Source: Prevotellaceae bacterium UBA7028
GTDB taxonomy: Bacteria > Bacteroidota > Bacteroidia > Bacteroidales > Bacteroidaceae
Assembly (NCBI GenBank): GCA_002494215.1
Contig: DLBF01000009.1
Coordinates: 1-7,915 of the forward strand
Length of the DNA stretch: 7,915 bases
Direction of reading: 5' to 3'
Both the position numbers and the translations under genes were made by a program. Of the stretch, positions 1,009 through 7,915 are shown in pieces. Each line of letters starts with the position of its first letter. Position 1 is the stretch's first letter. The notes below the pieces were generated by a model. It did no database searches, had not been told where the DNA came from, and worked only from the letters and a program-made list of their open reading frames with translations.

Positions 1009-1599
1009 ATGAGTATTCTTTCTGATTGGTTCAACCAACTCGACCCTGCCCTACGCATCTATTGGGGCATCGCTATCTTTGCATCCATTGTAGTAATTAT
1101 CCAGACTACTATGTCATTTGCCGGAATGGGTGATATTGATTCGGGCAGTGCCGATGTGGATTTCAGTACCGATACCGACAGCTTGGATGATGCCGGCAGT
1201 ATGCACCTGCTCTCCATCCGCAACATATTCTACTTTTTGTTAGGTTTTGGTTGGGCTGGTGTCAGCCTGTGGGATACCATCCCCAGCGCCATCGTCCTCT
1301 GTGCCGTAGCCGTCCTGACAGGCTGCCTCTTCGTAGCAATCTTTGTCTTCCTGTTCCGTCAGATGATGAAGTTGCAGAGCAATGGCGCCTACAGTATCAA
1401 CGATGCCGTGGGAAAGGTATGCGATGTGTATATGCGTATCCCCGGAGAAAACCAAGGCATGGGAAAAGTTCAAATTAGCTTCAACGGCTCCGTTCAGGAA
1501 CTGGATGCCCGCACCATAGGCGCGCCCATCCCCTCAGGCACCAAAGTGCGCGTGCTACGCGTAATAGAAAAAAAGGTATTGGAAGTGGAGACAGCTTAA
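1009..1599 (+). CDS. NfeD-like membrane protein with C-terminal OB fold (flotillin partner)
   Basis: A 196-residue integral membrane protein. A first hydrophobic helix spans about residues 17-38. An acidic, Asp/Ser-rich loop follows (41-63, with repeated DxD). Two more helices lie at about 72-88 and 92-117. The soluble C-terminal domain (about 126-194) looks like the small beta-barrel OB fold of NfeD proteins, with the pattern 'DAVGKVCDV...GKVQISFNG...VRVLRVIEKKVLEVE'. This matches short NfeD1b-type proteins such as YuaF of B. subtilis, which lack the ClpP-like protease domain and are encoded beside a flotillin. No protease residues are seen here. The flotillin gene lies two genes downstream. 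The role, helping organise flotillin-containing membrane domains, is inferred from family and context. Confidence 0.82.
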   Translation: MSILSDWFNQLDPALRIYWGIAIFASIVVIIQTTMSFAGMGDIDSGSADVDFSTDTDSLDDAGSMHLLSIRNIFYFLLGFGWAGVSLWDTIPSAIVLCAVAVLTGCLFVAIFVFLFRQMMKLQSNGAYSINDAVGKVCDVYMRIPGENQGMGKVQISFNGSVQELDARTIGAPIPSGTKVRVLRVIEKKVLEVETA

Positions 1600-1602
1600 G
1601 CT

Positions 1603-1630
1603 GGTTTACGGTTTACGGTTTACAGTTTAC
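1603..1630 (+). repeat. Inverted heptad arm, four GTTTAC units after the nfeD-like gene
   Basis: Three copies of GGTTTAC and one AGTTTAC in tandem start three bases after the nfeD-like stop. They are the reverse complement, in their GTTTAC core, of the GTAAAC heptads at 1664-1691. The two arms can pair as four 6-bp blocks separated by single purine-purine mismatches, around a loop of about 34 bases. Confidence 0.9.
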
Positions 1631-1663
1631 GGCGTTCAAATATAAACAAATAAACATCTAAAC

Positions 1664-1733
1664 GGTAAACGGTAAACAGTAAACGGTAAACAATAAACGG
1701 TAAACGGTAAACAGTAAACGGTAAACAATAAAA
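1664..1733 (+). repeat. Tandem heptads (GTAAAC core), 35-bp higher-order unit x2
   Basis: Ten consecutive 7-mers run directly up to the S23 start codon. They form a five-heptad pattern used twice: GGTAAAC, GGTAAAC, AGTAAAC, GGTAAAC, AATAAAC. The first 35-bp copy is 1664-1698 and the second 1699-1733; they differ only in the last base. The heptad was therefore expanded first singly and later as a 35-bp block. Confidence 0.95.
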
Positions 1734-1734
1734 C

Positions 1735-2109
1735 ATGGAATACTCATTTGAGAAATTAAACGTTTGGAAAGAGGCAAGAAAGCTAGTGGTTGCTGTTTAT
1801 CAGCTGCTCGACAATTTTCCCAAGTTTGAGAATTATGCTCTTTGCGACCAAATAAGACGTTCTATTATCTCAGTACCATCAAACGTGGCAGAAGGAACAG
1901 GGCGTATGTCACCCAAAGAAAAACTGCACTTCATTGAAATATCATATGGGTCTTTGATGGAAGCTTATAATCAACTGATTATTGCTTCAGACCTTAAATA
2001 TATAACAGAAGAAAGTCTAAAAGAATTAAAACCATCAATAGATACGGTAGCCCGTTTGCTAAACGGACTTCGTTCTCAGATAATTAAAGATTTAAACCAT
2101 AAACAGTAA
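1735..2109 (+). CDS. Four-helix-bundle protein, S23 / 23S rRNA intervening-sequence family
   Basis: A 124-residue, all-helical protein with the hallmarks of the S23 family: 'FEKLNVWKEARKL' (5-17), FP (28-29), 'QIRRSIISVPSNVAEGTGR' (39-57), 'HFIEISYGSL' (65-74) and the QL following. Family members form pentameric four-helix bundles related to the Avd accessory protein of diversity-generating retroelements. Some are encoded inside 23S rRNA intervening sequences. The molecular role of free-standing copies is not established. This one is not in an rRNA gene and no reverse transcriptase is nearby. It sits between NfeD-like and flotillin genes, wrapped in heptad repeats. Its base composition is lower in G+C than its neighbours (21, 25 and 15 G+C per 60 bases at 1741, 1801 and 1981, against 38 at 1261 and 32 at 2221). 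The last five codons and the stop lie inside the downstream repeat. This suggests an inserted unit. Confidence 0.9.
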   Translation: MEYSFEKLNVWKEARKLVVAVYQLLDNFPKFENYALCDQIRRSIISVPSNVAEGTGRMSPKEKLHFIEISYGSLMEAYNQLIIASDLKYITEESLKELKPSIDTVARLLNGLRSQIIKDLNHKQ

Positions 2110-2197
2110 ACAGTAAACCATAAACAGTAAACAGTAAACCATAAACAGTAAACAGTAAACCATAAACAGTAAACAATAAACCGTAAACAGTAAACCC
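2093..2197 (+). repeat. Tandem heptads (TAAAC core), 21-bp higher-order unit x5
   Basis: Fifteen contiguous 7-mers form five 21-bp units of the type TAAACCA, TAAACAG, TAAACAG. The first three are exact, and the last two carry substitutions (TAAACAA, TAAACCG, TAAACCC). The array begins inside the S23 coding region, supplies its TAA stop (2107-2109) and ends 14 bases before the flotillin ATG. Because seven is not a multiple of three, TAA falls in all three forward frames. Confidence 0.95.
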
Positions 2198-2211: not shown

Positions 2212-3651
2212 ATGTTACAAGATCCATTAACCCTAATTGTAGTATGCGCCATCCTGGTGGTGGCCATCGTGGCCTTCCTGGCCAATCGTTACAGAAAGTG
2301 TCCTGCCGACAAGATCCTGGTTATCTATGGTAGTGGCAATGGTGCTAAGAAATCCGCCAACTGTGTACACGGTGGTGGTGCCTTTGTATGGCCTGTCATT
2401 CAGGACTATGCCTACATGAGTCTGACTCCCATCGGTATCGATGCCAACCTTACCAATGCCTTGTCTCGTCAGAACATCCGTGTGGACGTACCCTGCCGCT
2501 TTACCGTAGGTATCAGCACCGACCCCGAGTACATGAATGCTGCTGCCGAACGTCTGTTGGGTCAGACAGCCAACCAGATTCAGGAAATGGCACGCGACAT
2601 CCTCTTCGGTCAGTTGCGTCTGGTTATCGCCACCATGAGTATCGAGGAGTTGAACTCCGACCGTGACAAGTTCCTGGAAGCTATCACCGCTAATGTCGAG
2701 GTCGAGTTGAAGAAAATCGGTTTGAAGCTTATCAACGTAAACGTTACCGATATCAAGGACGAGAGTGGTTATATCGAGGCACTCGGTCAGGAGGCTGCTG
2801 CCAAGGCTATCAACGAGGCCAAGGTTCGCGTTGCTGAGCAGGAGAAGATTGGTGAGATTGGTAAGGCTGAGGCTATCCGTGAGACCCGTATCCGTACCGC
2901 TGCTGCCAATGCAGAGGCTGTGAAGGGTGAAAACGAAGCCAAGATAAACATCGCCAACTCTGATGCCGACCGTCGCGAGAACGAGGCAGAGGCCCTGCGC
3001 CGTGCCACAGCTGCCGAGAATGTGGCACAGGCTCATGCCTTGGAGGAGTCTTATGCTGCCGAGCAGAAAGCCGAGGATGCCCGTGCTTCCCGTGAGCGTG
3101 CCACCCAGAATGCCAATATCATCGTTAAGCAGGAGATTGAGAAGAAACGACTCGTCATCGAGGCTGAGGCTGCTGCCGAACAGAAGCGCGTCAATGCCAA
3201 GGGTGAGGCAGATGCCATCTATGCCAAGATGGAGGCAGAGGCTAAGGGTCTCTATCAGATTCTGACCAAGCAAGCCGAGGGTTACGACAAGATGATTCAG
3301 GCTGCCGGTGGTGATGCTACCAAGGCATACACCCTCCTCCTTCTGGAGAAGCTGCCCGAACTCGTCAAGACTCAGGTCGAGGCTATCAAGGGCATCAATA
3401 TCGACAAGGTTACCGTTTGGGACAATGGTGGCAATGCCGATGGCAAGGGCTCTACTGCCAACTTCCTTTCAGGTCTCATGAAGAGTGTTCCTCCTTTGAA
3501 CGAGCTTTTCGAGCAGGCCGGCATGTCTCTCCCCGAGTATTTGGGCAAGAAAAGCCTCACCCCCGACCCCTCTCCCGTGGGCGAGGGGAACCCCGAAGGG
3601 GAGAGGAACGAGAACCAGACCCATGGTAACACTGGCGGAGGTCAGAACTGA
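2212..3651 (+). CDS. Flotillin-family (SPFH domain) membrane-microdomain protein
   Basis: A 479-residue flotillin. A single N-terminal hydrophobic helix (about 7-25) anchors it. The SPFH/band-7 domain follows (about 28-190, including 'GGGAFVWPV' at 54-62 and a conserved 'MSIEEL...RDKF' at 142-154). A long Ala/Glu-rich coiled coil runs from about 190 to 365. The flotillin C-terminal region (about 366-447) contains 'LLLEKLPELVKTQ' and 'INIDKVTVWDNGG', which parallels the end of B. subtilis FloT. Flotillins oligomerise at the inner face of the cytoplasmic membrane and mark ordered lipid domains; partner NfeD proteins join them. Residues 448-465 (SLTPDPSPVGEGNPEGER) are encoded by an interspersed palindromic element and are not family sequence. 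The following NENQTHGNTGGGQN is probably the native tail. No separate promoter is visible, so co-transcription with the genes upstream is likely. Confidence 0.94.
   Translation: MLQDPLTLIVVCAILVVAIVAFLANRYRKCPADKILVIYGSGNGAKKSANCVHGGGAFVWPVIQDYAYMSLTPIGIDANLTNALSRQNIRVDVPCRFTVGISTDPEYMNAAAERLLGQTANQIQEMARDILFGQLRLVIATMSIEELNSDRDKFLEAITANVEVELKKIGLKLINVNVTDIKDESGYIEALGQEAAAKAINEAKVRVAEQEKIGEIGKAEAIRETRIRTAAANAEAVKGENEAKINIANSDADRRENEAEALRRATAAENVAQAHALEESYAAEQKAEDARASRERATQNANIIVKQEIEKKRLVIEAEAAAEQKRVNAKGEADAIYAKMEAEAKGLYQILTKQAEGYDKMIQAAGGDATKAYTLLLLEKLPELVKTQVEAIKGINIDKVTVWDNGGNADGKGSTANFLSGLMKSVPPLNELFEQAGMSLPEYLGKKSLTPDPSPVGEGNPEGERNENQTHGNTGGGQN
3553..3606 (+). repeat. Palindromic GC-rich element inserted in frame in the flotillin gene
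   Basis: A 54-base GC-rich block carries the CTCACCCCCGACCCCTCTCC-type sequence typical of short interspersed elements in Bacteroidetes genomes. CCCCTC (3567-3572) pairs with GAGGGG (3583-3588), extended by CCC/GGG inside. CCCC-GAA-GGGG (3591-3601) makes a second hairpin. As an alternative fold, CCTCTCCC (3569-3576) pairs with GGGAGAGG (3599-3606). The block is exactly 18 codons long, so the flotillin frame is kept. Element limits are inferred from where the family-like sequence stops. Confidence 0.75.
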
Positions 3652-3662
3652 TTTCGGAGAAG

Positions 3663-3698
3663 GTTAAAGAAGTTAGAGAAGTCAAAGTAGTTAAAGCC
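3663..3698 (+). repeat. Nonamer tandem repeat, left arm (GTTAAAGAA type)
   Basis: Four consecutive 9-mers follow the flotillin stop: GTTAAAGAA, GTTAGAGAA, GTCAAAGTA, GTTAAAGCC. The first 21 bases (3663-3683) are an inverted match to 3772-3793, with about 20 of 22 positions complementary. Confidence 0.8.
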
Positions 3699-3722
3699 GA
3701 TAGTTATACCCATGTTATCAAG

Positions 3723-3741
3723 AAGCCGTAAGTAACGGCTT
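3723..3741 (+). terminator. Hairpin after the flotillin gene, possible terminator
   Basis: AAGCCGT (3723-3729) and ACGGCTT (3735-3741) form a perfect 7-bp stem with a 5-base loop. It lies in the centre of the larger nonamer inverted repeat. No clear U-tract follows, so a terminator role is possible but not shown. Confidence 0.4.
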
Positions 3742-3771
3742 AACTTCTGTCTGAAGGACGAGCGAAACGAA

Positions 3772-3796
3772 GACTTCTTTTAACTTCTTTAACTTC
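3772..3796 (+). repeat. Nonamer tandem repeat, right arm (inverted, TTTAACTTC type)
   Basis: GACTTC is followed by two TTTAACTTC units (with one extra T). This is the inverted partner of 3663-3683. The arms enclose 88 bases including the 3723-3741 hairpin. Short AT-rich near-repeats continue to 3870: TATAAAC/TTTAAAC words (3812-3838), then TTTTAACA-type 8-mers (3848-3870). Confidence 0.75.
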
Positions 3797-3871
3797 CAAA
3801 ACTCATAAACTATACACTATAAACTTTAAACTATAAACTCTTTAACCTTTTAACATTTTAACATTTTAACC

Positions 3872-7896: not shown

Positions 7897-7915
7897 GCCC
7901 AGATGGCGGAATCGG
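7897..7915 (+). tRNA. tRNA-Leu, 5' end only (cut by window edge)
   Basis: The last 19 bases, GCCCAGATGGCGGAATCGG, are the 5' end of a tRNA. They comprise the acceptor strand GCCCAGA, the T8-G9 linker, a D stem starting GCG, and a D loop with the conserved GG. This form is typical of bacterial tRNA-Leu. The anticodon lies outside the window, so the isoacceptor is unknown, and the amino-acid identity rests on resemblance of the first 19 bases only. Confidence 0.75.

Follow-up and report, generated by a model that had tools for sequence, protein, structure and literature searches.

S23-family genes between inverted tandem-repeat arrays: a candidate mobile element of bacterial operon spacers

Introduction

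To our knowledge, S23 genes are tiny genes of unknown purpose that are known mainly from inserts in ribosomal RNA genes, and we know of no function for the S23 proteins, whose structure has been solved. The stretch of DNA analysed here (the window; 7,915 nucleotides of Prevotellaceae bacterium UBA7028, contig DLBF01000009.1) carries such a gene between two protein genes and within arrays of a 7-bp repeat. The heptads of Cyanobacteria, Xanthomonas, Beggiatoaceae, and Bacteroidetes have had no known cause, and a link between S23 and heptads makes both questions, that of the gene and that of the repeats, testable.

Results

The S23 gene of the window and its arrays

The window ORF belongs to the S23 / 23S_rRNA_IVP family, as it scores above both curated cut-offs (PF05635, E 9e-37, 126 bits, cut-off 33.8; TIGR02436, E 2.6e-33, 114.5 bits, cut-off 24). 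The only PDB relative of its protein is 2gsc (E 1.3e-18), which is XCC0516 of Xanthomonas campestris. The protein retains the motif RxxxSxxxNxxE; Q39, R42, S46, and N50 are invariant across 14 aligned S23 members, and E53 is nearly so. The gene, its arrays, and its neighbours are listed in Table 1.

Table 1. Positions of the S23 gene, the repeat arrays, and the adjoining host genes in the window
Feature	Position	Strand	Basis or remark
Upstream host gene ("NfeD" of the preliminary description)	1009..1599	+	Homologue adjoins flotillin in 78/80 loci
Left outer arm, GGTTTAC x4.3	1603..1632	.	Tandem Repeats Finder; inverted relative to the right array
Inner left array, TAAACGG x9.7	1659..1726	.	Tandem Repeats Finder; orientation as in the right array
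S23-family protein gene (PF05635 / TIGR02436), four-helix-bundle, 124 aa	1735..2109	+	Profile matches
Right arm, TAAACAG type, 21-bp higher-order unit from 2093	2093..2195	.	Tandem Repeats Finder (TAAACAG x13.7 at 2100-2195)
Downstream host gene, flotillin / SPFH protein	2212..3651	+	PF01145, E 1.8e-28
Probable ORF-less inverted array pair, 9-bp unit	3657..3796	.	Tandem Repeats Finder; inversion by reading the sequence, unscored

A preliminary description of this DNA held that the gene is wrapped in 7-bp arrays and is poorer in G+C than both neighbours, and both observations hold (G+C of 0.357 for S23, 0.503 for the upstream gene, and 0.542 for flotillin). It counted two heptad arrays that share a TAAAC core; there are three, and the outermost on the left consists of GGTTTAC, which is the TAAAC type in reverse complement. 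Only 3 bp separate the host stop codon from this left outer array and 16 bp separate the end of the right array from the flotillin start codon, and the final codons of the S23 ORF fall inside the right array. The arrays are far above chance expectation: the lag-7 score is 42 in the upstream spacer and 51 in the downstream spacer, with maxima of 12.5 and 14.5, respectively, in 500 dinucleotide shuffles.

In the predicted RNA fold of the S23 spacer (-117.5 kcal/mol; z -2.6, from 20 shuffles only), 1603-1630 pairs with 2169-2196 over 25 pairs, and S23 lies in the loop. Pairing of the left outer arm is predicted to be nearly as strong with the inner left array (-30.6 kcal/mol) as with the right array (-32.7 kcal/mol).

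Other repeats are present in the window. The probable ORF-less pair consists of a GAAGTTAA-type array at 3657-3696 and its complement at 3773-3796, between the flotillin and aquaporin genes; it begins an S23-less cluster in that spacer (3657-3870), which continues with AAACTAT x5.7 and then TTTAACAT x3.8. The C-terminal residues of flotillin, LTPDPSPVGEGNPEGE, are encoded over an imperfect, G+C-rich palindrome at 3558-3606, and similar CCCTCCCC/GGGGGAG hairpins occur in spacers of L001, L003, L008, and L289; these are perhaps another repeat family. The final bases of the window (7897-7915) resemble the start of a tRNA, which we take to be a tRNA-Leu truncated where the window stops; no tRNA was reported in the window by ARAGORN.

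Empty sites at the flotillin locus

A scan with the flotillin protein yielded 80 loci. A homologue of the upstream gene adjoins flotillin in 78 of these, and none was found in L010 and L026, where the available sequence begins only 9 and 122 bp, respectively, from flotillin. The usual adjacency of the two host genes, on which the preliminary description relied, is therefore real, but its label of NfeD for the upstream gene is not borne out, as no Pfam or NCBIfam family matched 1009-1599 at E 0.001. That description had also proposed a search for empty sites in relatives, and these are the rule: 77 of 78 readable syntenic spacers (18-255 bp) are free of any S23 ORF. The sole other filled flotillin spacer, in L002, holds an S23 gene of 118 aa, 13% identical to that of the window, with CATTGAA arrays on one flank and the reverse complement on the other. 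Since both the gene and the arrays of L002 differ from those of the window, one spacer appears to have taken in S23 genes from two different subfamilies, and each of these genes is accompanied by arrays of its own.

Inverted, locus-specific arms around S23 genes

PF05635 was found in 15 of 15 related genomes, with 1-17 matches each. Most of these places were fetched (weak matches below about 38 bits only partly), and an iterated profile gave 98 S23 ORFs including duplicates. Removal of duplicates and of domain scores below 85 bits left 79, and the 78 with at least 100 bp on each side form the S23 set, drawn from the 15 related genomes and the window. The 150-bp flanks of each gene were compared, upstream against reverse-complemented downstream, and a Smith-Waterman (SW) score of at least 14 was counted as complementary. 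Complementary flanks surround 64 of 78 S23 genes. The figure is 8 of 250 for control genes, drawn at random from those of the 449 controls that have 100 bp or more on each side, and 25 of 386 for swapped flanks. An S23 ORF between stem-forming complementary ends, as in an intervening sequence (IVS), is thus seen in 64/78 relatives and, as a predicted stem, in the window. Orthologous copies are non-independent, and complementarity was therefore also counted by site class: arms are complementary in 30/40 classes and in none of the remaining 10/40.

Direct flank similarity reaches SW>=14 in 5/78 S23 genes, which rules out direct arrays as the general anatomy. The flanks of the window are more similar in direct (47) than in inverted (20.5) orientation, and the window is therefore a less typical, unusual copy of the S23 element. 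L001 and L007 fail the complementarity score because the downstream array starts within the end of the S23 ORF. Complementary arms are absent from one S23 branch (L127, L167:2019, and L167:6911). The members of this branch (L127:1690-2124, L167:2019-2504, and L167:6911-7342) sit in long spacers, and their context is possibly another one, e.g. a larger mobile element. A repeat period of 7 is the commonest, and a strict 7-bp rule is ruled out by periods of 8, 9, and 12 bp with the same architecture.

Comparison with all 449 controls used a slightly different set of 78 S23 genes (both neighbours called, ORFs of at least 85 aa). Flanking arrays are present on either side of 71/78 S23 genes and 198/449 controls, an excess that the preliminary description had suggested looking for. 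Additionally, 66/78 S23 genes are codirectional with both neighbours, compared to 257/449 controls. Eight of the 12 non-codirectional S23 genes have a codirectional ortholog at their site, and miscalled ORFs therefore probably lower the 66/78. Evidence of compensatory change between the arms of orthologous sites is weak: among 36 pairs, own exceeds crossed complementarity in 19 and the reverse holds in 10 (p 0.005), and the signal is limited to few sites, being driven by sites 0, 1, and 7.

Many of the related genomes also encode proteins of about 210-290 aa (L143, L149, L150, and other weak matches) that score low and match only in the N-terminal PF05635 part. A longer S23-like family is possible.

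Joint movement of gene and arms

The S23 genes sort into 41 site classes, and arrays are shared (SW>=14) by 14/15 cross-site pairs with at least 75% protein identity, by 17/24 at 60-75% identity, and by 51/1910 below 30% identity; array similarity and protein identity across sites give a Spearman coefficient of 0.24 (0/500 permutations). There are exceptions. L127 and L167 are 85% identical without shared arrays, and L086, which within the set comes closest to the S23 gene of the window (68% by BLAST), differs from it in its unit (SW 6).

DNA homology was inspected in seven S23 pairs from different sites. In five of these it spans both arms and ends at, or within about 20 bp of, host stop and start codons; for instance, L138 and L139, in different operons, share 485 bp at 85.6% identity. 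The homology of L002/L113 and of L094/L117 covers the gene and 25-40 bp upstream. By sequence, gene and arms occur together in unrelated operons, and the suggestion of the preliminary description that heptads and S23 spread together is supported by the shared units across sites and by the homology ending near the ends of host genes.

The dN/dS of S23 is 0.03-0.22 in the 12 computable of 14 pairs, which indicates that the protein is under purifying selection. In nine of the 12, dS exceeds 0.9, and the arms are therefore still recognisable near synonymous saturation.

ORF-less hairpins and cognate units

Copies of the arms without the gene were found at sites where relatives carry S23. The L139 site was read in the seven genomes that have the downstream gene. 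The full element is present in G015; ORF-less hairpins are present in G013, with the same unit, and in G012, with the GGGGCAA-type unit found at that genome's S23 gene L158; G009 has an unrelated hairpin, and G001, G003, and G004 have a spacer of 12-22 bp. Similarly, the L169 spacer (14 genomes), between genes that we take to encode V-type ATPase subunits, holds a full CATAATT element in G013 and ORF-less CATAATT hairpins in G011 and G015, both of which carry a same-lineage S23 gene some 2 kb upstream. In G001, G002, G003, and G007 the spacer is occupied by hairpins of the GTTGACAAGT type, a type that also accompanies the S23 genes L083 and L084; it measures 5-16 bp in G006, G010, and G014, and other short or unrelated spacers are found in G004, G008, G009, and G012. 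As in MITEs, ORF-less copies in the relatives have the ends of an ORF-bearing copy, as seen for L281 compared with L278 and for L287 and L288 compared with L285. By eye, target-site duplications were not readable, the spacers being too diverged between species.

When 249 S23-less arrays were compared with S23 arms, they matched in 93/1460 pairs within their own genome and in 408/14974 pairs with other genomes (0/2000 label permutations), an excess that may be inflated by some arrays lying within kilobases of S23 and by a few places present in two loci. Presence of cognate units was scored with 21-base patterns, for which overlapping hits and not arrays were counted. The CATTGAA pattern fits: G002, where two S23 genes have this unit, gives 173 hits, and the other 14 genomes give 0-74. 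For TTTAGAG, 55 hits came from G008, in which no S23 of this unit was found, as compared to 7 from G005 and 3 from G006; these counts rule out that TTTAGAG arrays follow a cognate S23.

S23 copy number and heptad arrays

S23 was searched for in 61 of the 80 flotillin-scan genomes, and L001, L002, and L007, which have S23 genes in their flotillin loci, were left out of the correlations (n=58). The number of S23 genes per Mb rises with the density of heptad arrays (per 10 kb) at the flotillin locus (rho 0.61, p 3e-7). With independent contrasts taken on the flotillin tree, r is 0.45 (sign-flip p 0.002), and among the largest S23 contrasts the sign agrees with that of the array contrast in only 12/20. 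Control correlations with heptad density are -0.09 for Y1_Tnp, -0.24 for RVT_1, 0.10 for genome size, and 0.07 for G+C. Among the 61 species, the five without S23 have zero heptad arrays in 100 kb, and S23-bearing species have 0.49, 1.14, and 2.14 arrays per 10 kb with rising S23 density.

For a second sample, 60 Bacteroidota genomes each contributed one stretch near a contig start. Arrays with a period of 7 or 8 bp were found in 0/24 S23-free genomes (410 kb), 2/12 with one or two S23, and 7/24 with five or more (461 kb); the first and last groups differ with p 0.009. In this sample the graded correlation is weak, with a rho of 0.23 (p 0.09), or of 0.31 (p 0.025) for lag 7 alone (n=52).

Occurrence across Bacteroidota, plasmids, and phages

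PF05635 is present in 75 of 99 Bacteroidota genomes. In a phylum-wide set of 29 loci (the single best match in each of 29 genomes, 99 searched), flanks are complementary at SW>=14 in 11/29 as compared to 3/277 swapped, and at a score of 10 in 22/29 as compared to 43/279; the arms are thus weaker phylum-wide than in the related genomes.

Among 72,556 plasmid records, 27 match PF05635, mostly cyanobacterial, and 18 of the matching records were fetched, including two (L273 and L275) that are unannotated and whose ORF ends were guessed. Plasmid flanks are complementary at 14 in 10/18, compared to 6/170 swapped; L263 and L266 are near-identical loci. The arms read GGGAGTA / TCCCTAC in Nostoc (L260), GGTGTAG / CTACACC in Calothrix (L268), and are GACAGAG-type in Azospirillum (L275). 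In 13 of 16 annotated plasmid loci the gene is codirectional with both neighbours, and in L260, L265, and L276 it is antisense. The architecture of an S23 gene in inverted arrays recurs in cyanobacterial and Azospirillum plasmids. Three cyanobacterial plasmid copies lie between cas genes: L261 (cas10 / cmr3-family) and both L262 and L267 (cas6 / cas4). The arms are complementary in L261 and L262, and L267 has direct arrays. In a phage collection, four of 50,697 records match, all at E 5e-4, three of them annotated as Avd and the fourth unannotated.

Discussion

A proposed mobile element of operon spacers

In our judgement, the window probably holds one copy of an IVS-like mobile element of operon spacers, made up of an S23 gene and its cognate, usually inverted, tandem arrays. 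The paired arms, the joint movement, the purifying selection, the ORF-less copies, and the copy-number link all point this way as far as they can be read from DNA. The main idea of the preliminary description stands, and the phenomenon is larger than it proposed, since it overlooked the usual inversion of the arrays, the existence of ORF-less versions and of periods of 8, 9, and 12 bp, and the involvement of other phyla.

In such an element, arrays of a short tandem repeat, usually of 7 bp and usually inverted, would form the two arms of a hairpin, and the S23 gene would occupy its loop. An S23 oligomer may bind the hairpin that its cognate repeat forms as DNA or RNA, and may promote the copying or insertion of that hairpin into intergenic spacers, mostly in sense orientation, thereby serving its own autonomous element and, in trans, the ORF-less non-autonomous arrays. 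Once transcribed, the element would take up a fold resembling that of a 23S rRNA intervening sequence, with the S23 ORF in the loop, and RNase III could cut this RNA; the enzyme making new DNA would presumably be a host function. That S23 recognises its own heptad unit is our leading idea because unit and lineage are co-inherited and because copy numbers correlate. The sense bias is compatible with an RNA-level step as well as with selection against antisense insertions. S23 has no known catalytic domain and no insertion event was seen, which counts against the mobile-element reading. So do the more direct than inverted flanks of the window, the different unit of L086, the weaker phylum-wide arms, the ten site classes lacking complementarity, the TTTAGAG counts, the sign agreement in only 12/20 of the largest contrasts, the weak graded correlation, and the few sites with compensatory change.

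A wider proposal is offered tentatively and with less confidence: S23 might be the driver of bacterial heptameric intergenic repeats, a non-catalytic oligomer that recognises its own hairpins and multiplies them via host enzymes, which would make it a transposase- and reverse-transcriptase-free class of mobile element with the rRNA intervening sequences as its rRNA-resident branch. S23 with mirror-image arrays may then explain the seven-letter repeats of several bacterial groups.

Other explanations

The arrays could have come first. Host replication or template-switch errors would make the hairpins, and S23 would spread passively by arm recombination into hairpins of the same unit. Shared units would thereby be accounted for without any S23 activity, and S23-less arrays do far outnumber S23 (173 CATTGAA hits and two S23 genes of the unit in G002), with ORF-less same-unit hairpins at the exact sites where relatives have S23. 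However, this order of events predicts neither the copy-number correlation at an unlinked locus, nor the lack of 7-bp arrays in the sampled S23-free genomes, nor the strong purifying selection on S23, and we consider it unlikely.

Alternatively, the S23 hairpin could be a host device for operon mRNA processing (RNase III, differential stability) that is kept for regulation, a reading in keeping with the sense orientation between codirectional genes (66/78) and with the predicted closing stem in the window (z -2.6, 20 shuffles). A device kept for regulation is improbable, however, at sites that are empty in most relatives (77/78 at flotillin), and the same element stands in unrelated operons and is antisense in 3/16 annotated plasmid copies.

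More doubtful still is that another enzyme, a reverse transcriptase or an IS200/RAYT-type transposase, drives the arrays with S23 as an accessory, as Avd is. The distant relation of S23 to Avd (29 bits, sub-cut-off) speaks for it. Against it, among the 32 genomes with at least five S23 matches RVT_1 was not found in 26 and Y1_Tnp in 17, with neither found in 14, although many of these genomes are metagenome-assembled or incomplete and divergent enzymes could go unrecognised by the two models. There is no positive correlation of heptads with either count, and a RAYT or reverse transcriptase as hidden driver is thus unsupported.

Coincidence, whereby heptad-rich genomes make any small spacer gene look bracketed, is hardly credible: arrays do stand on at least one side of 198/449 control genes, but complementary flanks surround 64/78 S23 genes and 8/250 controls, swapped flanks fail, and the rule recurs in other phyla with other units.

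Relation to known systems

Among known systems, the 23S rRNA intervening sequence is one of the closest to the mobile element proposed here. In Coxiella, the sections of PMC4990558 on this subject describe an S23 ORF in a 23S rRNA stem-loop with a 28-bp stem that is cut by RNase III, cite ideas of a mobile origin, and describe the ORF as decaying. The S23 ORF in the loop, the terminal complementary stem, and the length of about 0.4-0.5 kb are shared, as far as those sections go (PMC4990558). In contrast to their plain 28-bp stem inside 23S rRNA, the elements described here lie between protein genes and have tandem-array arms with a unit specific to the S23 lineage, and the decaying ORF contrasts with purifying selection and ORF-less same-unit copies (PMC4990558, same sections). 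Rfam found no rRNA in the window, where S23 stands between two protein genes and not inside a 23S rRNA gene. Because of this location, the window-type element is not classed as a 23S rRNA IVS; it would work like an intervening sequence.

The published heptameric intergenic repeats, by their descriptions, are also many-copy 7-bp arrays in spacers (PMC4679880 and PMC4692102, in the parts concerned). TAACTGA heptads are described from Beggiatoaceae, Cyanobacteria, and Bacteroidetes with no mechanism evident, and a repeat-binding protein was suggested as their mobile part; S23 is not mentioned in the searched text of that paper (PMC4679880). GGGNATC heptads are reported from Nostoc and from Xanthomonas, which has 70-75 inverted pairs and in which the heptads are mostly between aligned ORFs; they are generally unassociated with mobile elements; the searched text of this paper likewise has no mention of S23 (PMC4692102). 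The frequent inverted pairs of the Xanthomonas repeats are, by description, a further likeness (PMC4692102, in part). The portions of both papers concerned assign no cause or protein to the heptads, whereas here an S23 gene lies inside the inverted pair (PMC4679880, PMC4692102).

Among open-licence PubMed Central papers, none was found that links S23 genes to tandem arrays. REP sequences with RAYT (TnpA_REP, a Y1 transposase) provide a gene bracketed by the repeats that it is thought to serve, together with many gene-less copies. S23 is similarly bracketed and has gene-less copies elsewhere, but it is no Y1 enzyme: the window ORF matches PF05635 and not Y1_Tnp, and Y1_Tnp was not found in 17/32 S23-rich genomes and does not track the arrays. 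Avd is an accessory in diversity-generating retroelements. The helical bundle of S23 is distantly related to it in sequence, judging from the relevant part of PMC10053308, but the window S23 is below the Avd cut-offs (Avd equivalog model 29 bits, cut-off 80; bAvd 32.7, cut-off 40) and no reverse transcriptase was found among the seven window proteins scanned with Pfam and NCBIfam, so that it does not class as part of such a retroelement.

S23-family genes in cas loci have been reported before. The passages concerned report the family, with the motif RxxxSxxxNxxE, in cas loci (PMC3936711), S23/IVP genes also in cas loci (PMC10910872), and a Flavobacterium four-helix-bundle gene between the guanylate kinase and nicotinate adenylyltransferase genes (PMC5524665). 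The same family stands between cas genes in the plasmids above, in line with those passages (PMC3936711, PMC10910872), but we read these copies as spacer elements inserted in cas operons and not as CRISPR components. Overall, the link between S23 and its arrays suggests that the S23 genes of cas and other operons entered by insertion and do not belong to the systems in which they stand.
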